DNA of 64,000 nucleotides from a virus: positions 1 to 64,000 of IMG/VR virus record IMGVR_UViG_3300017917_001940. One strand, written 5' to 3'. The translations under genes were made by a program, and so were the position numbers. This document shows, piece after piece, positions 9,748 to 54,454 of the stretch (the first letter of the stretch is position 1; each line of letters begins with the position of its first letter). The notes beneath the pieces are model-generated. The model was not told where the DNA came from. It made no database searches and saw only the letters and a list, made by a program, of their open reading frames with translations.

Positions 9748-11077
9748 ACCACGTGTGGTTATTGCTACTGTTCCATTTGTTGATGAGAATACTCCATTGG
9801 CGGCGCCCGCTGTGTTAAAAGCCGCGCTAACTGCCGCTGGTATCGAATGTGTGGGTTTGGATCTTAACATAGAGATTTATAATAAAATACAACACAATCC
9901 AAACAGACATTTGTTTCTTGACTTTTTCTATAGACAAATAATACATGAAGAAATAGTAGAAGATCTGACTAAAATGTTAGACTTTTATGCTCAAGAACTA
10001 CTAGCACACAGACCCACTATCATTGGATTAAGTTTATTTTCTAGTAATTCCCAAACTTTTACTGCATGGCTGAGTGCGGTTTTACGCAATCAAGAACCCA
10101 CAGTTAAAATAGTCATCGGCGGCCCTGGATTAGAAACCCTGGAAAATTCTTTATTTAAATTTCCTGATCGAATAAAACAGCTAGGGCTAATTGATGATTA
10201 CATTACCGGCGACGCAGAAACGTCTTTTGTAGAATATGTTCGTGGCAATTACAATTACCCTGGAATTAATTCTACTAATTGGCAAGCTAATGCTAACTTT
10301 GATCAATTGCCCATGCCAGATTATTCAGATTATAGGTTCTTTAGATATGGTTATCCATTATTGCCTATTATAGACAGCAGAGGTTGTGTACAAAATTGTG
10401 AGTTTTGTGATGTTATTGCATTTTGGAAAAAGTTTCAATATCGTACAGCTGACAACATTTTTAATCAAATGTTCGCGCTAATTGAAAAATATCGTGTGTA
10501 CCGGTTTCAATTTTCCAGTAGCATTTGTAATGGCAATTTAAGAGAATTTAAAAAACTTGTCAAGCTCATAGCAGATTATAATGACAGTGTAAATGACAGT
10601 GAGCAAATACACTGGGTTGGATCTTTTATAGTGCGTCCATCTAATCAACATCGAGAAGAGTTGTGGCAACTAATAAAGAAAAGCAACGGATTCTTATTAA
10701 CTGGTGTTGAAAGCATTGTAGAGCATGTGCGTATTAACCTAGGCAAGAATTTCACTAATGCAGATTTAGATTACCATTTGGCTATGGCTAAAAAGTACCA
10801 AGTGCCCACAAACTTATTAATGATAGCGGCTTACCCAACCGAAACTGATGAAGATTATCAAACAACAATTCAGTGGTTTAAAGATCATCAAGAATATGCT
10901 AATAATACCATAATGAAAGTACAGTGTACTTTACCGGCAATATTGCCCGGAACAAAATTAGAAGCAAACATCAACCCGGAGCAATTTAACAACAACCATA
11001 GCCGACGTCGTCAGCATGCCCAACATCTTGAAGAAGTAATAAAACAATGTGGATTCGAAATACAAACATTCTTTTAA
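9722..11077 (+). CDS. Radical SAM protein with B12-binding-like N-terminus
   Basis: The 451-aa protein has an N-terminal Rossmann-like region (about 10-180, with LSLFSSNS and VIGGPGLE) typical of cobalamin-binding domains. The radical SAM cluster motif is RGCVQNCEFCD (C222, C226, C229), followed by a TIM-barrel-like region. The motif binds a 4Fe-4S cluster and cleaves SAM. The closest form is the B12-binding radical SAM family, but the substrate is unknown. The start is a TTG placed 7 bases after AAGGAAG; a GTG at 9740 is the alternative. It is one candidate user of the Fe-S clusters that the phage IscU and IscA could build. Confidence 0.8.
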   Translation: MPNTCVVNKPRVVIATVPFVDENTPLAAPAVLKAALTAAGIECVGLDLNIEIYNKIQHNPNRHLFLDFFYRQIIHEEIVEDLTKMLDFYAQELLAHRPTIIGLSLFSSNSQTFTAWLSAVLRNQEPTVKIVIGGPGLETLENSLFKFPDRIKQLGLIDDYITGDAETSFVEYVRGNYNYPGINSTNWQANANFDQLPMPDYSDYRFFRYGYPLLPIIDSRGCVQNCEFCDVIAFWKKFQYRTADNIFNQMFALIEKYRVYRFQFSSSICNGNLREFKKLVKLIADYNDSVNDSEQIHWVGSFIVRPSNQHREELWQLIKKSNGFLLTGVESIVEHVRINLGKNFTNADLDYHLAMAKKYQVPTNLLMIAAYPTETDEDYQTTIQWFKDHQEYANNTIMKVQCTLPAILPGTKLEANINPEQFNNNHSRRRQHAQHLEEVIKQCGFEIQTFF

Positions 11078-11463
11078 CTCTTGCTATACAGGCCAGTGAT
11101 CAAACAAAAATTTCTGTATTTGATCAGGAATTTAATCCCCTGCCCACAACTAGCACATGTCAAAATAATATTATTAATGTTGAAATTTTAACTTATATGC
11201 CCAATCAAGTGCTATTGGTCCTATCCGGTCCGGCTCGTTTATCTAACATGTGGTTAGCTGGTATAAAAGTTAAAAATGATAAACTGTTAAATGTCCTGGA
11301 ATATAAACCGTCCGCACAGTCATTTAACTCACCGGGTGATTATATCAATAACGTATCAACCAAGACCCTGGATTGGACCCAACCTGGTTGCGTGTTAATT
11401 AATCTTTTTAACCCAAATCCATTTGCCTATCATATGTATATTGGCAATAAAATATCGTTCTGA
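11047..11463 (+). CDS. Hypothetical protein after the radical SAM gene
   Basis: This 138-aa, beta-rich protein has no motif I recognise. It overlaps the 3' end of the radical SAM gene by 31 bases in another frame, so the two are probably co-transcribed. The C-terminal half contains DWTQPGCVLINLFNPNP. The absence of a signal peptide or membrane helix suggests a cytoplasmic or virion location. Confidence 0.55.
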   Translation: MWIRNTNILLTLAIQASDQTKISVFDQEFNPLPTTSTCQNNIINVEILTYMPNQVLLVLSGPARLSNMWLAGIKVKNDKLLNVLEYKPSAQSFNSPGDYINNVSTKTLDWTQPGCVLINLFNPNPFAYHMYIGNKISF

Positions 11464-39261: not shown

Positions 39262-40869
39262 ATGATTTTAAGTTATTGGACATTATTTGTAGCACTATCA
39301 CTGAGCCTTATTGCCGCTTGGTATAGTATCGCCGGCCTAACAGCCATCTTTGCCGCGGCCGCAGTGCCTATTATGATCATGGGCGGCATCATGGAAGTGG
39401 CCAAGATCACTGTTACTGTATGGTTACATGAATACTGGCAATACTGTAAACGCAGTCTTAAGGCGCAGTTGACTGTTAGTGTGGTCCTACTCATGTTTAT
39501 TACCAGCATGGGTATCTTTGGATTCCTATCAAAAGCACACAGCGATCAAGCACTGGTATCAGGCGATGTACAGGCTAAGATTAGCATATACGATGAAAAG
39601 ATTCGTATTGCCCGCGAGAACATTGAGGCAAGCCGTAAGGCATTGACACAAATGGATGCCGCAGTTGATCAAACCATGGGTCGTTCGACGGATGAAAAAG
39701 GTGCTGATCGAGCAGTGGCCATACGACGTAGTCAAAGTGCTGAACGCTCACGTTTATTAAAAGAAATTGATCAAGAACAAAAGAAGATTCAAAAACTTAA
39801 CGAAGAAGCCGCCCCTATTCGTGCAGAAGTGCGTAAGGTAGAAGCCGAAGTTGGTCCTATCAAATATATTGCCGCACTGATCTATGGCGACAATCCTGAT
39901 GCTAACTTGTTAGAACGTGCTGTTCGTTGGGTTATTATTATACTGGTTATTGTATTTGATCCGTTGGCTATTGCCATGGTATTAAGTTCTACAGAAAGTA
40001 TCAAATGGGAAAAACAATGGAAGGGTCGCAAACCTGATCCTGTTGATGACTCTGAAGATCATGAAGTTGAATCTTGGTTTGATCGTGCTAAAGAACGTGC
40101 CCGCTTTTGGGACAAACAACCCAAGGTAGGTGACCTTGTTGAACAAATAACTCCAGAGAATGTTCACAAGGAACAGTTAACTGATTTGGTTATAGATGAA
40201 CCACAAACTGAAGATCAACATACACACATTCCTGTATCAACATACTACTCAAGTATCAGACCAAGTAGTCAGTTTGAACCTAAGCCAGAAGAAGATCAAG
40301 AGCTTGCTCAAGATCCAATGATCAATAAAGAAGCCAATGCAGATCTATCAATGTATAACGATGAAAGGTTAGTTTCAAAGTTTGACAAAGAGTCAGGATT
40401 TGTGAGTCCTAATGCACCAGAATTAGATGCTAGTGATGAACGCCCAGGCGACTATCTAAATGATAATGACAAAGCTCTACGCACCGCATGGAAAGAAGCT
40501 AATCCAAAAGATACACTCAAGCATCAACGTGACTTGTATGATAAAGGACTAATTGATCAATTGCCTTGGCTAGGTCTAGATGCTGACAACGAGCCACACA
40601 CTGGAGAGGTAAAAGGATTTGGTACAGCTTTCCCAAATGATCCTGCTAAAGGCGACATGTTCTTACGTGTAGATCAAATACCAAGTATCTTGTTTAAGTT
40701 TAATGGATCACATTGGATTGAGGTTGACAAAAACCGAACAGACCAGTATGCTTATGATGAAGCATACATTGATCATCTTATTGCCAAAATTGATTCTGGG
40801 GAATATGATCCAGACCTGCTTAGTGATGCCGAACGCGATCAAATTGAACATAGACTAAAGAATGCCTGA
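39262..40869 (+). CDS. Large membrane protein with coiled coil
   Basis: The 535-aa protein has three hydrophobic segments in the first 95 residues, a charged coiled coil (about 115-200: KIRIARENIEASRKAL, EQKKIQKLNEEAAPIRAEV), and a fourth membrane helix (about 220-240, VRWVIIILVIVFDPLAIAMV). A long acidic cytoplasmic tail follows. Similar multi-domain membrane proteins of unknown role occur in marine T4-like phages. A late octamer lies directly before the start codon. Confidence 0.65.
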   Translation: MILSYWTLFVALSLSLIAAWYSIAGLTAIFAAAAVPIMIMGGIMEVAKITVTVWLHEYWQYCKRSLKAQLTVSVVLLMFITSMGIFGFLSKAHSDQALVSGDVQAKISIYDEKIRIARENIEASRKALTQMDAAVDQTMGRSTDEKGADRAVAIRRSQSAERSRLLKEIDQEQKKIQKLNEEAAPIRAEVRKVEAEVGPIKYIAALIYGDNPDANLLERAVRWVIIILVIVFDPLAIAMVLSSTESIKWEKQWKGRKPDPVDDSEDHEVESWFDRAKERARFWDKQPKVGDLVEQITPENVHKEQLTDLVIDEPQTEDQHTHIPVSTYYSSIRPSSQFEPKPEEDQELAQDPMINKEANADLSMYNDERLVSKFDKESGFVSPNAPELDASDERPGDYLNDNDKALRTAWKEANPKDTLKHQRDLYDKGLIDQLPWLGLDADNEPHTGEVKGFGTAFPNDPAKGDMFLRVDQIPSILFKFNGSHWIEVDKNRTDQYAYDEAYIDHLIAKIDSGEYDPDLLSDAERDQIEHRLKNA

Positions 40870-42470: not shown

Positions 42471-44395
<1,925 letters not shown>

Positions 44396-44424
44396 TTGAC
44401 AGGTATTTGATATTCTGTCATAAT
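44396..44424 (+). promoter_or_regulatory. Sigma70-like promoter of hsp20
   Basis: Perfect TTGACA (44396-44401), a 17-bp spacer ending TGT, and CATAAT (44419-44424). TGACAG and CTGTCA form an inverted repeat between the boxes. The -10 overlaps the late octamer. Confidence 0.75.
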
Positions 44425-44429
44425 AAATA
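44422..44429 (+). promoter_or_regulatory. T4-type late promoter of hsp20
   Basis: AATAAATA, 7/8 to the consensus, shares bases with the sigma70-like -10. The predicted late +1 is about 44435. Confidence 0.6.
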
Positions 44430-44432
44430 CAT

Positions 44433-44461
44433 GTGTGGATGCCCAATGGTGGGGTCCACAC
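44433..44461 (+). promoter_or_regulatory. 5' stem-loop of the hsp20 message
   Basis: GTGTGGA (44433-44439) pairs with TCCACAC (44455-44461), with an inner CCC/GGG. It lies at the 5' end of either transcript, well before the AAGGAG ribosome site. Confidence 0.55.
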
Positions 44462-44496
44462 TGTATAGTCAACTTGCTTAATAAAGGAGAAAACAA

Positions 44497-44934
44497 ATGA
44501 CTAAAATCACATCTTTTGATCTAACCCCATTCTATCGTAATACCATTGGTGTAGATAGACTCTTTGATCGCATCACACAACAGATCGATCATGCCGCAGG
44601 TAATAACTACCCTCCATATAACATTGTAGAAACAGGCGAGAATCTTTATGAGATTCAAGTGGCTGTTGCTGGCTTCACACAAGGTGAAGTTACAATCAAT
44701 GTTAAAGACGGTGAGTTAATTATCACTGGAGAAAAAACAGAAGCTATTCCAGAAGGACATGTATATCGTCACCAAGGTATTAGTGCTCGTAAGTTTATTC
44801 GTACATTTAGTCTTGCTGATCATGTAGAAGTGCGTGAGGCTGTAAGTAAGGATGGTATCCTAACTGTTAAGTTAGAGCGTATTATTCCTGAGTCAGCCAA
44901 GCCAAAAACTATTGCGATCACATACGCAAATTAA
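44497..44934 (+). CDS. Hsp20 small heat-shock protein (IbpA-like)
   Basis: The 145-aa protein has an alpha-crystallin domain (PPYNIVETGENLYEIQVAVA through DGILTVKLERI), with the helical FDLTPFYRNTIGVDRLF start of the IbpA/B type and KTIAI near the end. Small heat-shock proteins hold unfolded proteins without ATP. Hsp20 is common in T4-like cyanophages. It forms part of the chaperone block here, with two overlapping promoters. Confidence 0.92.
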   Translation: MTKITSFDLTPFYRNTIGVDRLFDRITQQIDHAAGNNYPPYNIVETGENLYEIQVAVAGFTQGEVTINVKDGELIITGEKTEAIPEGHVYRHQGISARKFIRTFSLADHVEVREAVSKDGILTVKLERIIPESAKPKTIAITYAN

Positions 44935-44942
44935 TATAATGT

Positions 44943-44950
44943 AGTAAATA
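44943..44950 (+). promoter_or_regulatory. T4-type late promoter of clpS with adjacent -10 box
   Basis: AGTAAATA, 6/8 to the late consensus. A perfect TATAAT (44935-44940), with a weak TTGCGA 17 bp upstream, lies just before it, so an early and a late promoter may be stacked here too. Confidence 0.5.
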
Positions 44951-44951
44951 C

Positions 44952-44976
44952 AGTGGAGGGCGTGGTGCTCTCCACT
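44952..44976 (+). promoter_or_regulatory. Stem-loop in the clpS leader
   Basis: AGTGGAG (44952-44958) pairs with CTCCACT (44970-44976). It is at the 5' end if the sigma70-like -10 is used, and AAGGAC follows. Confidence 0.5.
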
Positions 44977-44995
44977 AACTGATAAAGGACTAAGG

Positions 44996-45298
44996 ATGTC
45001 ACAAGCAGAAGTAAAAACAAGAACAAGCCTAGAGATTAAAGAACCTCCTATGTTCAAGGTCATTTATCTCAATGATAACCAAACTACTATGGAATTTGTT
45101 ATTGAGACTTTAGTTGACTTTTTTGATTACAATACAGAAACAGCACTAAAAATTACTGAAGATATTCACCACGAAGGTTCAGCAGTAGTGGCTGTTTTAC
45201 CTTATGAGGTAGCTGAACAAAAAGGCATTGAAGTTACTGTTTGTGCTAGATCCAACAACTATCCTCTTCAAATTAAACTTGAACCTGAGTCTGATTAA
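44996..45298 (+). CDS. clpS: ClpS-type N-degron adaptor
   Basis: The 100-aa protein matches ClpS: EPPMFKVIYLNDNQTTMEFV (N26, D27, T30 and M32 of the N-degron pocket), HHEGSAVVAVLPYEVAE (His59) and a C-terminal YPLQIKLE strand. E. coli ClpS has Asp where this protein has N28, so the pocket may differ. ClpS delivers N-end rule substrates to ClpA, which is not encoded here, so it would act on host ClpAP. It runs tail to tail with the phosphoesterase gene, overlapping by 4 bases. Confidence 0.9.
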   Translation: MSQAEVKTRTSLEIKEPPMFKVIYLNDNQTTMEFVIETLVDFFDYNTETALKITEDIHHEGSAVVAVLPYEVAEQKGIEVTVCARSNNYPLQIKLEPESD

Positions 45299-46103: not shown

Positions 46104-46469
46104 ATGAACATAATAATGGGAACCGAGAACGCACAATCATTTGCTGAGAAATATACAGTATTAGAACTTGATATTATTAAGATCATGCCCGAAGGACATT
46201 GTATACCAGCTTATTGTGTAGTTGAAAACATTCCAATACTAGATCTCAATCGAGTTGATAATATGCGCCGATTGCATCGCGGATTGTTGGAAAACTATCG
46301 CCAAAAAAATTGGAACTATTGTATTCAGGCAATTGAGAATCTAACAGGCTTTTGGGGAGGAGAGTTAGACTCGTTCTACGCTGATTTACAGCAACGTATC
46401 AATAAATACTCAGAACAAGATCCAGGGGAGGATTGGGATGGTACAATTGAAAAACATCCTGTTGGTTAG
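46104..46469 (+). CDS. Conserved T4-like phage protein
   Basis: The 121-aa protein contains LELDIIKIMPEGH, IPAYCVVENIPI and LTGFWGGELDSFYADLQQRI, a family present in many marine T4-like phages without known function. It follows AAAGGA and overlaps the next, lipoprotein, gene by 32 bases. Confidence 0.7.
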   Translation: MNIIMGTENAQSFAEKYTVLELDIIKIMPEGHCIPAYCVVENIPILDLNRVDNMRRLHRGLLENYRQKNWNYCIQAIENLTGFWGGELDSFYADLQQRINKYSEQDPGEDWDGTIEKHPVG

Positions 46470-47105: not shown

Positions 47106-47113
47106 GTTAAATA
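47106..47113 (+). promoter_or_regulatory. T4-type late promoter of the curli-like genes
   Basis: GTTAAATA, 6/8 to the consensus, followed by AGGAGC and the ATG at 47129. It marks the csgF/csgG/curlin-like genes as late phage genes. Confidence 0.5.
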
Positions 47114-47128
47114 CTAATAGGAGCTAGA

Positions 47129-47575
47129 ATGAGAAAAATAATAATAACAATTCTCGCTGGTTTTACTGTTAATGTGTGGGCCGACACCTTAGTTCACCAA
47201 TTTCAATCGCCAGCTTTTATACCGGGTAATGGGTATTCCACTCATGTGCTAACCATTGAACAGCTCGAAGCAAACCGTAAAAAAGCTATACAGGATGCTA
47301 AAAAAGCCGAAGCTGATGCTGCCGCAAGAGCCGCCGCAAATACTAATCTACAAAAATTCCTAAACAACTTTGAAAGTCGTGTTTATGCTCAATTGTCCAA
47401 ACAATTAGCAGACGCTATGTTTTCCTCCACCTCCGGAACCACAGGTACTATAGAATTCCAAGGCACTACTATTACTTGGGACAAGGACACGGTTACCAAT
47501 CAGGTCACGCTAACTATTGTTAGTCCTACAGGAACCACTACGGTTACTGTACCAATAGCGAGCTTTGCATTTTAA
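47129..47575 (+). CDS. csgF: CsgF-like curli assembly protein
   Basis: The 148-aa protein has a signal peptide (to about VWA|D18) followed by LVHQFQSPAFIPGNG. This matches the mature start of E. coli CsgF (FQFRNPNFGG), which plugs into the CsgG channel. A helical FESRVYAQLSKQLADAMF and a C-terminal beta-rich part (VTLTIVSPTGTTTVTVPI) follow the CsgF layout, with an added Ala/Lys helix in the middle. In bacteria CsgF extends the channel and couples secretion to fibre nucleation. Confidence 0.78.
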   Translation: MRKIIITILAGFTVNVWADTLVHQFQSPAFIPGNGYSTHVLTIEQLEANRKKAIQDAKKAEADAAARAAANTNLQKFLNNFESRVYAQLSKQLADAMFSSTSGTTGTIEFQGTTITWDKDTVTNQVTLTIVSPTGTTTVTVPIASFAF

Positions 47576-48354
47576 TGCGAGGCTTAATGACTCTTCTACT
47601 AGCTTTAACCTTAACCGGTTGTGCTGGTCTGCAACTTGATCTTCTCAAAGAAGAACCTGTAGCACTAAAACCCAAAGAAAACTTAATTGCTAAACTGCCC
47701 AAGTTAGATGGTCCACCTATGACCATTGCTGTATACGGATTTATAGATAAAACAGGTCAAAAGAAACCTAGCCAAAACTTAGCGTTGTTTAGTTCAGCAG
47801 TGACACAAGGTGCCGAAGTATTTTTAATTAAAGCACTACAAGATTCACCAGGTTGGTTTAGAGTTGTAGAACGTGTAGGACTAGACAATTTGGTTAAAGA
47901 ACGTCAACTTATTCGAAATCAACGAGAAGTTTACGAAGGTAAGGATGCCAAACCATTAAAGCCATTAACTGTGGCTGGCATTATGATTGAAGGTGGTATT
48001 ATTGGCTATGACAGTAATATCCGTTCAGGTGGTAACGGTGCTCGATTCTTGGGTATCGGAGCCAGCCAACAATATCGAGTCGACGAAGTAGTTATTAGTC
48101 TTAGAATAGTAAGTATTTCGTCAGGTGAGGTATTGTTGACAAACGCTGTGAGCAAAACAATATACAGCACACAGCACGATGTCGCAGTGTTAAAATTCGT
48201 TGATGGTGGCACCAAAGCACTTGAAATGGAAAACGGCTCGGCATTGAATGAACCCACTACCTACGCAGTTCGTGTGGCAATTGAACAAGCGGTATACGAA
48301 TTAATTGTAGAAGGGGAAAAGAAAGGGCTCTGGAGATTTCAGGGCAAACAATAA
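47575..48354 (+). CDS. csgG: CsgG-like outer-membrane secretion channel
   Basis: The 259-aa lipoprotein (E. coli CsgG 277 aa) has lipobox LTGC (Cys16) and strong matches along its length: VYGFIDKTGQKKP, FRVVERVGLDNLVKERQLIR, IMIEGGIIGYDSNIRSGG, GARFLGIGASQQYRVD and LWRF at the end. CsgG forms a nonameric pore that lets curli subunits cross the outer membrane. The ATG overlaps the csgF stop. It is the clearest gene of the module. Confidence 0.93.
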   Translation: MRGLMTLLLALTLTGCAGLQLDLLKEEPVALKPKENLIAKLPKLDGPPMTIAVYGFIDKTGQKKPSQNLALFSSAVTQGAEVFLIKALQDSPGWFRVVERVGLDNLVKERQLIRNQREVYEGKDAKPLKPLTVAGIMIEGGIIGYDSNIRSGGNGARFLGIGASQQYRVDEVVISLRIVSISSGEVLLTNAVSKTIYSTQHDVAVLKFVDGGTKALEMENGSALNEPTTYAVRVAIEQAVYELIVEGEKKGLWRFQGKQ

Positions 48355-48965
48355 TGATAAGAAGTATTTTAATACTCACAATGATGATGTTAGCTGGCGT
48401 TGGAGTCGTTAGTGCCAATGAGGTGTATATTGAACAAATTGGTGATGGTACAAGCATCTCAGTTACTCAAGAAGGATCTAACAACAACATGGGTAGTGCC
48501 AATGCATCGGCATATATCGGTGGTGATGCGAATGATGTAACTGTTAGCCAAGTTGGTTCAAATAATAGTTTGACAATGACCATTGGTGGTAACACTAATA
48601 CTGTTAACGTGAATACTACTGGTAGTAATAATACGCAAGAAATTACCTGCGGTACCAGTGCAAGCCAAACTTGTAGTAGTTCGACTATTACCCAAACAGT
48701 CACTGGTGACTCAAACACTGTGACACAAACTTTAGGTAGTGGTGCAACACGTACAAGTAATATAAACATTACAGGTGATTACAACACTGTAACACATACT
48801 GCTAGTGGTGTTGGCTCTCATAGTGCTGACATTACAGTTAGCGGCAGTGGTACATCGTTGCTTAATAACCATGTTAGCGTAACACAAGAAGGTGCAAATG
48901 CTAAGACAGCAGTGGTTAACGCCACGGGTAATAATATCAATATTGGTATTACTCAGCGCGATTGA
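48354..48965 (+). CDS. Curlin-repeat amyloid-like protein
   Basis: The 203-aa protein has a signal peptide (about 1-21, ending VVSA) and a mature part made of Gln/Asn/Ser/Thr/Gly repeats (ITQTVTGDSNTVTQ, VSQVGSNNSLT, VTQEGANAK) spaced like the CsgA/CsgB repeat. It has a single Cys pair. Such repeats stack into amyloid strands outside the cell. It ends with ITQRD. Which of major subunit or nucleator it is cannot be told. The overlap with csgG (one base) indicates one operon. Confidence 0.85.
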   Translation: MIRSILILTMMMLAGVGVVSANEVYIEQIGDGTSISVTQEGSNNNMGSANASAYIGGDANDVTVSQVGSNNSLTMTIGGNTNTVNVNTTGSNNTQEITCGTSASQTCSSSTITQTVTGDSNTVTQTLGSGATRTSNINITGDYNTVTHTASGVGSHSADITVSGSGTSLLNNHVSVTQEGANAKTAVVNATGNNINIGITQRD

Positions 48966-49995
48966 TAGTTGGGCCGGTGTTGGAAAAGTGACAGAACAAA
49001 CAGGCCCAACTGAAATCGTTAGATCAAAAAAGTCACTGCCGTCGGCGGTGAATACCCCTGTGGAGATGAACGATACCATCATCACTGCCAAGGCTCGGGC
49101 ACAGTTGACCTTTGAGGATAATACCACTGTAAAGATTACTGAACAAAGCAAATTAGTCATAGACGACTTTGTCTATGATCCTAAAAAAGGCACAGGCAAA
49201 GTTGCTATGAAAGTTGTTCTGGGCACAGCTCGCTATTCTTCAGGACAAATAGCCAAGACAAATCCACAAGCAGTGGATGTTAAAACTCCTACTGCTACCG
49301 TGGCTGTTCGCGGCACAGATTTTTCTATGACTGTAGACGAACTAGGGCGCAGTCTTGTTATGTTATTGCCCAGTTGCGATGACAAAGGTTGTGTAACTGG
49401 TGCGATTTTAGTTAAAAATGACGCAGGTGAAGTTTTTATGGATCAGCCATATCAAGCCACACTAGTTGCTACGCTAACCACACCGCCTACAGCTCCTGTA
49501 TTTGTAACCTTAGATCAGGCTAATATTAACAACATGTTAATTGTCAGTCCACCTAAACAGTTTAAAGATGAAGAGCTACAAAAAGAATCAAAGTCAGCAC
49601 TAGATATAAACTTTCTTAATCAAGACTTTTTAAAGTATAGTAAACTTGACGAAGATGAACTTAAAAAGTTTAGAGAATTAGACATGAATTATCTTGACAC
49701 AGATTTTTTGGCCAACATGCTAGATTTAGCCAACGCACAGTTGTCTGCTAGCCAAGAGCAAATGCTCAGTCAAAATACCATGTTGCCTGGCTATAATGCC
49801 GCTACAGGTTTAACGTATGGTATTGATGCAGATGACGACAGTAAACTTGTGCTACGCAGAGGCAACGATCATATTGCTCAAGTTACCGTAAATCGCGAAG
49901 CAAATTTAGTATTAAATATTACACAATCAGGCAACCCATTAACACAGCAGGTTAATCGCGGAGGAACGACGGTAATTACTATTAATCAACGATGA
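48898..49995 (+). CDS. Secreted FecR-domain protein with curlin-like tail
   Basis: The 365-aa protein has a signal peptide (VIISILVLLSAIDSWAG) encoded inside the 3' end of the curlin gene in another frame. Next is a FecR-type domain (ARAQLTFEDNTTVKITEQS, VKTPTATVAVRGTDFSM; about 55-130), then a helical linker. The C-terminal part (LVLNITQSGNPLTQQVNRGG, ending ITINQR) again resembles curlin repeats. It may anchor or seed the fibre. The ATG at 48898 is preferred; GTG 48892 is possible. Confidence 0.8.
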   Translation: MLRQQWLTPRVIISILVLLSAIDSWAGVGKVTEQTGPTEIVRSKKSLPSAVNTPVEMNDTIITAKARAQLTFEDNTTVKITEQSKLVIDDFVYDPKKGTGKVAMKVVLGTARYSSGQIAKTNPQAVDVKTPTATVAVRGTDFSMTVDELGRSLVMLLPSCDDKGCVTGAILVKNDAGEVFMDQPYQATLVATLTTPPTAPVFVTLDQANINNMLIVSPPKQFKDEELQKESKSALDINFLNQDFLKYSKLDEDELKKFRELDMNYLDTDFLANMLDLANAQLSASQEQMLSQNTMLPGYNAATGLTYGIDADDDSKLVLRRGNDHIAQVTVNREANLVLNITQSGNPLTQQVNRGGTTVITINQR

Positions 49996-50152: not shown

Positions 50153-50241
50153 GCTGGTTTAGACACAGGCCGCCAAGGTACCCACCAGAACCACAACAAG
50201 ACCCGGTACCTGACACGTTTTGGCCACCCGAAAACGAATAA
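50149..50241 (+). CDS. Pro-rich peptide, 30 aa
   Basis: The frame MSWFRHRPPRYPPEPQQDPV ends FWPPENE. It starts in the ATGA overlap with the upstream stop and ends inside a late octamer. It is probably translated, and its function is unknown. Confidence 0.45.
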   Translation: MSWFRHRPPRYPPEPQQDPVPDTFWPPENE

Positions 50242-50244
50242 ATA
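50237..50244 (+). promoter_or_regulatory. T4-type late promoter
   Basis: AATAAATA, 7/8 to the consensus, followed by a 27-base leader with AAGGGG and the ATG at 50272. Confidence 0.5.
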
Positions 50245-50271
50245 CCTACATAATAACAATAAGGGGCTATC

Positions 50272-50553
50272 ATGGGTGACATTTTTAAACTCATAGGTGA
50301 TCTTGGTTTTCCAATTGCTGTAGCACTAGCAGGCGGATACTTTGTTTATCTAACAATCAAACTATTATTGCAGGGTGTATTAGGCAGTATTCGCGGCATG
50401 GCGGGTATTATTACTGCACTAGATAACCGTGTAAAGACAATGAATCATGATGTTATACGTATTGATACTGTGGTATCAAATGCACTAGGTCTGCGTCCAG
50501 ACGTAGATCGTATTAGTCGAGCTGATGGCAAAAACGACGCACGGAGAGATTAG
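50272..50553 (+). CDS. Small membrane protein, YvrJ/holin-like
   Basis: The 93-aa protein starts MGDIFKLIGDLGFPIAVALAGGYF, one membrane helix with the GFPIxVA pattern seen in YvrJ-type and phage holin-like proteins. An amphipathic helix (IITALDNRVKTMNHDVIRIDTVV) follows. It shares this plan with the gene at 51362, so the two are paralogues. A role in lysis is possible but unproven. Confidence 0.6.
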   Translation: MGDIFKLIGDLGFPIAVALAGGYFVYLTIKLLLQGVLGSIRGMAGIITALDNRVKTMNHDVIRIDTVVSNALGLRPDVDRISRADGKNDARRD

Positions 50554-51361: not shown

Positions 51362-51688
51362 ATGGATGTAGTAGGATTGATAAACAAGTATGGATTTCCA
51401 ATTGTCATGGCAGTTGGAATGGGATATATTATAAAATATGTGTGGGAATGGTCAACTAAAGAAGTTAAGCCAGTTATCTCTGAAGCAAACACAGTGCTTA
51501 TCGCTCTTATTGATCGTATCCGCATGTTGGATAATGATCTCATCCGCTTAAATCAAAAAGTAAACACCGTATTACATCTTCGTGGTAAGACTATTGAATA
51601 TGAGCGTGTGGAAGCTGAGATGGAAATTAATAAAACTGTACACAAAAAATCTGAAGATGATCAAACTGCAAGTGCAGGTGAAGGTTGA
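51362..51688 (+). CDS. Small membrane protein, paralogue of the 50272 gene
   Basis: The 108-aa protein starts MDVVGLINKYGFPIVMAVGMGYIIKYV (one membrane helix with GFPI). A helical segment IALIDRIRMLDNDLIRLNQKVNTVL follows, which parallels TALDNRVKTMNHDVIRIDTVV of the 50272 protein. It ends in a charged tail. It is likely an ancient duplicate with holin-like shape. The function is unproven. Confidence 0.6.
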   Translation: MDVVGLINKYGFPIVMAVGMGYIIKYVWEWSTKEVKPVISEANTVLIALIDRIRMLDNDLIRLNQKVNTVLHLRGKTIEYERVEAEMEINKTVHKKSEDDQTASAGEG

Positions 51689-52221: not shown

Positions 52222-52440
52222 ACAAATACCTGAACCAATCCACGGGCCCAAACTGGCTCTAGTAGGTTCAAACAATAAATTCCATTGCGGTTGTGTGCCT
52301 GTTAGTATATTACCTGGCAAGTAATGCCAGAATAAAAAACTACTAATCATACTATCAACAATCCAGTCGCTAATCTTACCGACAGGACTATTTGCTAGTT
52401 GCTCGGTATACTGAGTCCCAATCTGATGGTAGTTCAACAT
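52210..52440 (-). CDS. Small hypothetical protein after the cyclase
   Basis: The 76-aa protein starts MLNYHQIGTQYTEQLANSP and has DWIVDSMISSFLFWHYLPG. It begins 7 bases after GAGGAG inside the 3' end of the cyclase gene, in another frame, which is a typical coupled arrangement. It fills what would otherwise be an empty stretch. The function is unknown. Confidence 0.5.
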   Translation of the reverse strand: MLNYHQIGTQYTEQLANSPVGKISDWIVDSMISSFLFWHYLPGNILTGTQPQWNLLFEPTRASLGPWIGSGICLPR

Positions 52441-54439
52441 TTTTCATCTCCTCGCATCTTTCAATCCATATATCATAGTAGTGATCCATTGCACCTTCAA
52501 ATCGACCTTTAAGTTCACGACATTGTTTAATCGCTTGGTCAAACTTCTGTTTGCGGTACAGTGCCAACATAGCATCGTGTAACTGATGGTCGCCTGTGTC
52601 AGCGTTTATTTCATCCTTACGTCCTAGTACAGTATAGATATGTACTCCTTCTGTTTTGCCTTTAACAGCAATACAATCTAGTTCGAGTACATAGTATTCG
52701 TCTGCTACATATTCTGCCGTCTTCGGGCCCAATACGATTTTGACACCATACGGTTTACTTTGCCCTTCAAGACGCGATGCGAGATTGACGCTATCTCCAA
52801 GGCAAGTATAATCGAAACGCTGATCACTGCCCATATTCCCAACAACAACAATCCCGGTATTAATACCAAGACCCATTCCAAAAGGTGGAACACCTTCAGC
52901 AGTAATTTCTTTATTAAATTCATCTAAACTCCCTAACATTTCTAATCCTGTGCGTACAGCATGTTTGGCGTGGTCTGCATCTTTAATCGGTGCGTTCCAA
53001 AATGCCATTTGAGCATCACCAATATATTTGTCCAGTGTGCCGCGATTCTCTAAAATCTTTTTAGTCATGGCAGTCATGTAACGATTCATGATCTTGGTCA
53101 AGCCTTGTACATCTCTACCATAGTGTTCACTGATGCTGGTAAAGCCACGCACATCTGTAAACATAATAGTCAACTCTTGTTCCTCACCACCTAGGCGTAG
53201 TAAGTCTGGACTGCGCTGTAGTTGTGCTACTAGGTCTGGACTCAAGTATGTGCCAAATTGTTTCTTTATTTGTTGCTTTTGCAAGAACTCGCTGACGAAC
53301 TTGACACCGTATGCGTGGAGGGACACAATAAGAATTGCGCCAACAAAGGCAGTGACATCATATAGATACAAACCGTAGCGGTAAGCAAGATGACTACCAA
53401 CCACGGCAATAAGTGTTGTTCCCACAACTGTCGCCAATCCAACATAAACATACCTCGTTAAAAATAATAAACCTACACCTGCTAATAATATAGCAAGTAA
53501 CTCTACACCATCTGCGTAATCAGGACGTTTGATAGTTACACCATTAATCATTGTGCTGATAGCACTAGCTTGAAACTCTTGTGGCCACATAGCACCTTGA
53601 GCAGTTGGCACAGGATTACCCAACCCTGCGGCAGCCGGCCCTACAATAACAATAGCATTACCAAAGTCTTTGGGCAAGTTAGTTAAACTTACGCTCTTTG
53701 ATTTTTGACTTAGGTCAACCCACACACGACCTAGGTTATCTGTTGTGATAGGACCAAATGCTGGCACACGCATCTTCTCTACACCAAGTTCATTTAACTT
53801 AACTTGGAATGTATTGTCACCTGCGGCCACCCGCAAAGTTTCCATCGACAAACTTGGGTATAGTTTATCACCCACTGCTACGACCATTGGCAAGCGACGA
53901 TTAACACCATCTACTTCTGGTAGTGTGCCGACAATTCCCACGCCCACTGCACTTGCTTCTAGAGGGCGAATGTTGGCAATTAATCCTGGATATTGTACAA
54001 CTTGTCCTAAGTATTCTGCACCAATAACAGCCGACCCTGGTTGCTTAGGTGGGTTCTTAGTTTTCTCACTTGGAACACTTGGTAGAATGACTGGATATTG
54101 TTTAAGTGCGTTGGCTAATACAGCATCGCCGCCTGTGCGATCTGGCTCAGCCATAAGGACATTAAACACAACAAGACCAGCATTACGACGATACAAATCT
54201 TTAATGATTTCAGCATATTGATCCCTTGGTAAAGGCCATTGGCCATATCGGTCTAATGTTGCTTCATCTATATTAACTGTGTATATATTGTTTTCTGTAG
54301 GAGCCTTGCTGGTAATCAGTGTGTCAAAATATTTTAAACGAACTGATTCTACAAATGCGGGATCTGCTACTCGCACACATAACACCAGGGCTAATGTAAC
54401 CAACGCAGTCCATGGGTTAATTAGAAGTTTTTTAAGCAT
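52388..54439 (-). CDS. CHASE2-domain class III adenylate cyclase
   Basis: The 683-aa protein has a membrane helix (about 10-25), an extracytoplasmic CHASE2 sensor (about 35-300), a three-helix membrane region (about 310-380) and a class III cyclase domain (about 420-600). The metal Asp residues are D429 (FTDVRGF) and D475 (YIGDAQMAF), base-specifying K471 and T545, and transition-state N552 and R556 (VNLASRLEG). All are present, so cAMP synthesis is expected. Such full-length receptors are bacterial signalling proteins and are very unusual in a phage. A T4-type late octamer precedes the start. Confidence 0.93.
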   Translation of the reverse strand: MLKKLLINPWTALVTLALVLCVRVADPAFVESVRLKYFDTLITSKAPTENNIYTVNIDEATLDRYGQWPLPRDQYAEIIKDLYRRNAGLVVFNVLMAEPDRTGGDAVLANALKQYPVILPSVPSEKTKNPPKQPGSAVIGAEYLGQVVQYPGLIANIRPLEASAVGVGIVGTLPEVDGVNRRLPMVVAVGDKLYPSLSMETLRVAAGDNTFQVKLNELGVEKMRVPAFGPITTDNLGRVWVDLSQKSKSVSLTNLPKDFGNAIVIVGPAAAGLGNPVPTAQGAMWPQEFQASAISTMINGVTIKRPDYADGVELLAILLAGVGLLFLTRYVYVGLATVVGTTLIAVVGSHLAYRYGLYLYDVTAFVGAILIVSLHAYGVKFVSEFLQKQQIKKQFGTYLSPDLVAQLQRSPDLLRLGGEEQELTIMFTDVRGFTSISEHYGRDVQGLTKIMNRYMTAMTKKILENRGTLDKYIGDAQMAFWNAPIKDADHAKHAVRTGLEMLGSLDEFNKEITAEGVPPFGMGLGINTGIVVVGNMGSDQRFDYTCLGDSVNLASRLEGQSKPYGVKIVLGPKTAEYVADEYYVLELDCIAVKGKTEGVHIYTVLGRKDEINADTGDHQLHDAMLALYRKQKFDQAIKQCRELKGRFEGAMDHYYDIWIERCEEMKNVELPSDWDSVYRATSK

Positions 54440-54443
54440 CTAA

Positions 54444-54454
54444 TATTTATTTAC
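54444..54454 (-). promoter_or_regulatory. T4-type late promoter of the cyclase gene
   Basis: On the minus strand GTAAATAAATA holds two overlapping late octamers, ending 4 or 8 bases before the ATG at 54439. This marks the cyclase as a late phage gene with a near-leaderless message. Confidence 0.5.

Follow-up and report, generated by a model that had tools for sequence, protein, structure and literature searches.

Curli modules have already been published for Pelagibacter phage HTVC008M, Methylophilales phage Melnitz and pelagiphage podoviruses (Zaragoza-Solas et al. 2020, PMC7029224; Buchholz et al. 2022, PMC9004378; Wittmers et al. 2022, PMC9599517), with proposed uses in sibling capture, lysis timing, superinfection defence and uptake. 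In HTVC008M (NC_020484) and Melnitz (MZ577097), csgF, csgG, curlin, fecR and cyclase genes lie in the order described below, and all of them share one strand with the cyclase gene. Both phages also have a further curlin gene, and two small membrane protein genes stand directly upstream of csgF. For podoviruses of small genome size, PMC9599517 describes a single module that encodes CsgF, CsgG, curlin, FecR and a cyclase but lacks CsgE. In the reading of that paper, csgF is preceded by "histidine kinases", one or two in number, and FecR is an iron-dependent regulator. A literature search that covered few subscription journals and preprints returned no paper on curli in jumbo phages. Two bacterial systems offer further comparison. 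The E. coli csgBAC/csgDEFG system has the CsgG channel, CsgF and curlin repeats, and the Burkholderia BiofilmReg operon (PMC5192318) encodes a secreted FecR-domain protein (LysM-FecR) beside a CHASE2 sensor, together with a histidine kinase and a response regulator; it affects biofilm, and the operon as described holds no curli genes.

We analysed a 64,000-nucleotide stretch (the window; positions 1 to 64,000 of IMG/VR record IMGVR_UViG_3300017917_001940, a viral record of 129,829 bp) in which csgF, csgG, a curlin-repeat gene and fecR are consecutive at 47129-49995. The features of the locus are as follows.

47107-47114, plus strand: late-promoter-like octamer TTAAATAC before csgF, marked by TAAATA enrichment
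47129-47575, plus strand: csgF, 148 aa with a signal peptide (Pfam CsgF, phrog_35372)
47575-48354, plus strand: csgG, 259 aa with a lipoprotein signal (LTGC) (Pfam CsgG, E. coli CsgG structures)
48354-48965, plus strand: curlin-repeat protein, 203 aa, CsgA/B-like fibre subunit (Curlin_rpt, structure model, dN/dS)
48898-49995, plus strand: secreted FecR-domain protein with a curlin-like C-terminal repeat (Pfam FecR, tail comparison, structure model)
50238-50245, plus strand: late-promoter-like octamer ATAAATAC before the gene for small membrane protein A
50272-50553, plus strand: small membrane protein A, 93 aa (phrog_18771, linkage to the module)
51362-51688, plus strand: small membrane protein B, 108 aa, paralogue of A (phrog_18771, E = 5e-29)
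52388-54439, minus strand: CHASE2-domain adenylate cyclase, 683 aa (Pfam, phrog_35576, catalytic residues)
54447-54454, minus strand: late-promoter-like octamer GTAAATAA before the cyclase gene

The csgF/csgG and csgG/curlin joins are one-base overlaps with TAATG at each, and fecR, which starts at GTG 48892 or, more likely, at ATG 48898, overlaps the curlin gene by 68-74 bases rather than one. The initial annotation had read this row, with fecR next, as a four-gene curli-like module with a late octamer ahead of csgF. The open reading frames and TTAAATAC bear it out: the four genes are real and the module reading is right, but the module is larger, with the cyclase and the small membrane pair linked to it. 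TAAATA lies upstream of 22 of the 91 called genes against 2.3 expected (9.6-fold enriched), is the most enriched of 15 anagrams (22 sense vs. 6 antisense), and is present before csgF, the small protein A gene and the cyclase gene. This enrichment and placement fit late T4-type transcription, which we infer for the module genes.

All four proteins of the row score above their Pfam cut-offs: CsgF with 54 bits (cut-off 25.8, E = 2e-14), CsgG with 184 bits (cut-off 20.8, E = 2e-54), the curlin-repeat protein with 29 bits against Curlin_rpt (cut-off 20.7, E = 9e-7) and the FecR protein with 46 bits (cut-off 24, E = 8e-12). These scores rule out chance or misannotation of the module genes. The alignment of CsgG with E. 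coli CsgG structures (E = 7e-48) covers almost the whole protein, and CsgF matches phrog_35372 (E = 2e-44) but nothing in the PDB in a single-sequence search. As the initial annotation had noted, csgE is missing: no match at E ≤ 1 was obtained in the whole record, in five jumbo relatives or in two Caulobacteraceae genomes. The CsgE gate is common in curli systems and absent from some lineages. The locus differs from E. coli curli in this respect and in its additional FecR protein and CHASE2 cyclase. Many related phages have a CsgG that is extended at its C-terminus by a long linker and a bacterial SH3 domain, an extension that the window CsgG lacks; SH3_3 scores above its cut-off in L008 and L018, and the csgG genes of L008, L017, L018 and L038 lie near 9959-11206. 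Such a domain could tie the channel to peptidoglycan.

The curlin gene is single-copy, with no second curlin gene in the whole record. Its AlphaFold model (mean pLDDT 89.9, pTM 0.81) shows strand pairs about every 22 residues and, as the model of a monomer, is no proof of amyloid formation. A fold search of this model against solved structures in the PDB gave nothing significant. Median dN/dS is 0.07-0.11 across all five genes, which indicates purifying selection on each, the curlin gene (0.11) among them. Conservation of, and selection on, the fibre subunit argue that selection may be keeping fibres and not only a pore.

In the FecR-domain protein, a signal-peptide-like start helix leads directly into the FecR domain; no cytoplasmic anti-sigma domain was found before a membrane helix. 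The protein has two near-invariant cysteines. The structure model comprises a FecR-like domain whose fold matches 4m0h and PupR 6ovk, a helical linker of low prediction quality and, at the C-terminus, a beta domain modelled with confidence. Foldseek also returned a 61-residue match to a "cell surface anchoring domain" (5ix9; E = 0.0095, target TM-score 0.72). The last 30-36 or so residues (about 49900-49992) resemble a curlin repeat, with a profile-profile score against curlin of 18.5-19.7, a level that none of 150 column-permuted controls reached; 154 unrelated windows gave 10.5 at most. A plain HMM search of FecR proteins with the curlin C-terminus gave no match, so the likeness stays a short, profile-level similarity. 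FecR genes adjoin cyclase genes in several bacterial genomes that lack curli, and this adjacency, together with the secreted FecR-domain protein beside the CHASE2 sensor of the Burkholderia biofilm operon (PMC5192318), leads us to see in the FecR protein a partner of the CHASE2 sensor that is exported and also contacts the fibre or channel of the curli system, and not a classical FecR regulator.

The cyclase matches CHASE2 (E = 1e-38), Guanylate_cyc (E = 2e-20) and phrog_35576 (E = 3e-230). Its metal-binding Asp, Lys and Arg are conserved in 47/47 relatives, and the window protein keeps the class III residues (both metal Asp, Lys, Asn and Arg) as well as the nearby Thr. In 33 of the 47 relatives the transition-state Asn is replaced by Ser and that Thr by Asp. 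Upstream of the module, a 121-aa protein (46104-46469) looks like a free-standing copy of the cyclase C-terminal region, with matches in relatives to the cyclase family.

The small membrane proteins match no Pfam family, and B shows a weak 20-residue match to the holin family phrog_4898 (E = 0.0019). Among 50,697 phage records the pair occurs only in Melnitz isolates and HTVC008M, and these sole carriers also have the module. When viral contigs were collected through protein A alone, B was present in 37/37 and the cyclase in 36/37, and every one of the 37 had at least one curli, FecR or cyclase gene. The pair lies downstream of the curli genes in the window. In HTVC008M and Melnitz it fills the place ahead of csgF, and at about 93 residues these proteins are too short for kinases. 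The "histidine kinases" of PMC9599517 may be this pair. The window proteins do not support a reading as histidine kinases, nor one of FecR as an iron-dependent regulator.

A single scan of viral contigs with the window CsgG found 87 relatives, the best 80 of which share 51-82% CsgG identity with it. Where the flanks were long enough, csgF was present in 78/78 loci, curlin in 71/71, fecR in 71/71 and the cyclase in 48/49. A CsgG match in "Salmonella phage S.Kent 1-2-1", a 1.5-kb unannotated record, was left out. The initial annotation had held that a failed CsgG profile match, or occurrence of the four genes only here beside bacterial chromosome genes, would undo the phage assignment; CsgG scores far above its cut-off, and the module recurs in many related phages. 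Bacterial contamination is ruled out by the phage genes of the window and by over 80 viral contigs with the module, which is truly phage-borne.

In the CsgG tree the phage proteins form one clade (98/93), in which the window branch (93/87) stands apart from the HTVC008M/Melnitz branch (90/80). The window CsgG is 52-54% identical to those of HTVC008M and Melnitz, from which the locus also differs in its single curlin gene, its cyclase on the opposite strand and its jumbo-phage background. It is likewise of a different phage family from the podoviruses of PMC9599517. Sister to all phages are the Caulobacteraceae proteins of two MAG contigs, L088 and L089, a rooting that is provisional because of long branches in some bacterial rows. 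Both contigs carry csgF-csgG-curlin-curlin-fecR-cyclase, with a CHASE2 cyclase as in the window, flanked by ordinary chromosomal genes; unlike the window they have two curlin genes, and the 10 kb around the operon showed no small membrane pair. At three other curli loci of Alphaproteobacteria neither a FecR nor a cyclase gene lies nearby, and among 348 genomes of the order of L088 this FecR type occurs in one, L088's own. These data point to the Caulobacteraceae operon as the nearest bacterial operon, close to the source of the phage module. A PycTM (Pycsar effector-like) gene follows the operon at L088:13554-14147; we attribute this to chance, as L089 has a TetR-like gene there instead.

The DnaB-like helicase of the window has its nearest counterparts, at about 50% identity, in jumbo phages of Pseudomonas such as PA5oct, and the window also encodes a second DNA helicase, an ATP-dependent ligase, both ribonucleotide reductase subunits, a primase and homing endonucleases. 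The gene at 39262-40869, a weak match to a virion structural family, is common to seven contigs of 278-364 kb, where its homologues sit near the module, and this suggests that the record is probably one part of a larger, jumbo phage genome. A row of chaperone-related genes at 42471-45298 encodes GroES, GroEL, a small heat-shock protein (Hsp20) and ClpS, and small heat-shock protein and ClpS genes are found upstream of csgF in 38 related loci. The phage GroEL is nearest to those of Betaproteobacteria (71-73% identity, vs. 62-64% in two Alphaproteobacteria), a weak hint that the host may be betaproteobacterial.

Our favoured reading, with a probability of roughly 0.6, is that infected cells export curli (type VIII) late, in the service of adhesion or aggregation, and that FecR and CHASE2 form a sensing branch. 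A horizontally acquired export module would be expressed late in infection. CsgG, the predicted outer-membrane channel on which CsgF would sit, would release the 203-aa curlin-repeat protein, which would stack into amyloid fibres on the infected cell. The FecR protein would be exported too, and its curlin-like last repeat makes the fibre or the secretion channel its most likely docking site. The FecR domain of this protein would most likely talk to the periplasmic CHASE2 domain of the linked cyclase, whose predicted output is cAMP, and the two small membrane proteins are candidate further parts of this inner-membrane branch, which would sense or tune fibre export. The most likely benefit would be a sticky late-infection surface that holds together sibling cells, surfaces or progeny virions; the next most likely would be that the infected cell is protected against other phages. 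It had been proposed at the outset that channel, plug and fibre subunit suffice to export an amyloid; the parts are indeed co-conserved and under purifying selection, and export itself may reasonably be supposed. The second curlin protein of HTVC008M, gp018 (L083:10638-11963), joins a PA14 domain to curlin repeats and looks like a fibre-borne adhesin, which fits adhesion. We count against the favoured explanation the missing CsgE, the short FecR-tail similarity and the empty curlin fold search, and also the report that cultures of Melnitz-infected cells showed no clumping (PMC9004378).

The uses listed in the initial annotation (clumping, superinfection blocking, a virion coat, a lysis pore) are hypotheses that earlier authors have also proposed, and the strict conservation of curlin and FecR makes use of CsgG in lysis less likely. 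Fibres might mainly keep superinfecting phages or grazers off the infected cell instead of holding cells or virions together, as suggested in PMC9599517. Surface fibres could mask receptors, and the molecular evidence is identical to that for adhesion and aggregation; the late promoter motif, however, suggests expression when exclusion is least useful, and we judge shielding as the main function to be rather unlikely. Still less probable is that lysis is timed by a gated CsgG/CsgF pore in a pinholin- or secretin-like manner, with an incidental curlin and the small pair as holin-like helpers. Such a pore was proposed for Melnitz (PMC9004378) on the basis of gene order and of a model in which the CsgG neck is narrow, and the late-type motif and the weak holin-family match of protein B agree with it. 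The strict retention of curlin and fecR (71/71 loci), both under purifying selection, nevertheless makes pore-only lysis less likely, and an outer-membrane CsgG by itself would not depolarise the inner membrane. The proposal is further weakened because it presumed a Melnitz without csgA/B, whereas the GenBank record annotates two curlin-repeat proteins.

A slim chance may be given to a tighter coupling, in which the FecR-curlin hybrid is an export gauge: its periplasmic FecR domain would hold or trigger the CHASE2 cyclase, and upon its exit through CsgG or joining of the fibre a changed cyclic-nucleotide signal would act on the small pair, so that the phage would tie the building of fibres to an event at the membrane, lysis timing for instance. 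Least probable of all, and in our estimate very improbable, is that an open CsgG channel takes up nutrients or cofactors and that the FecR protein is a regulator linked to iron, as suggested in PMC7029224 and PMC9599517. Absence of the CsgE gate would suit such a channel, but the strict retention of curlin and of the curlin-tailed FecR protein is left unexplained, and the FecR protein has no anti-sigma domain.

Although the phage curli module itself is already known, the window belongs to a different phage lineage, with contigs of up to 364 kb. Added here are the CHASE2 cyclase and the small membrane pair as linked parts, the curlin-tailed FecR protein and the Caulobacteraceae operon. The phage-specific membrane pair and the curlin-tailed FecR protein are parts that were missed or read differently earlier. 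The phage curli module is a stable one that also occurs in a separate lineage of very large phages, and it is no oddity of marine pelagiphages; why phages would make amyloid can be tested in cultured HTVC008M and Melnitz.
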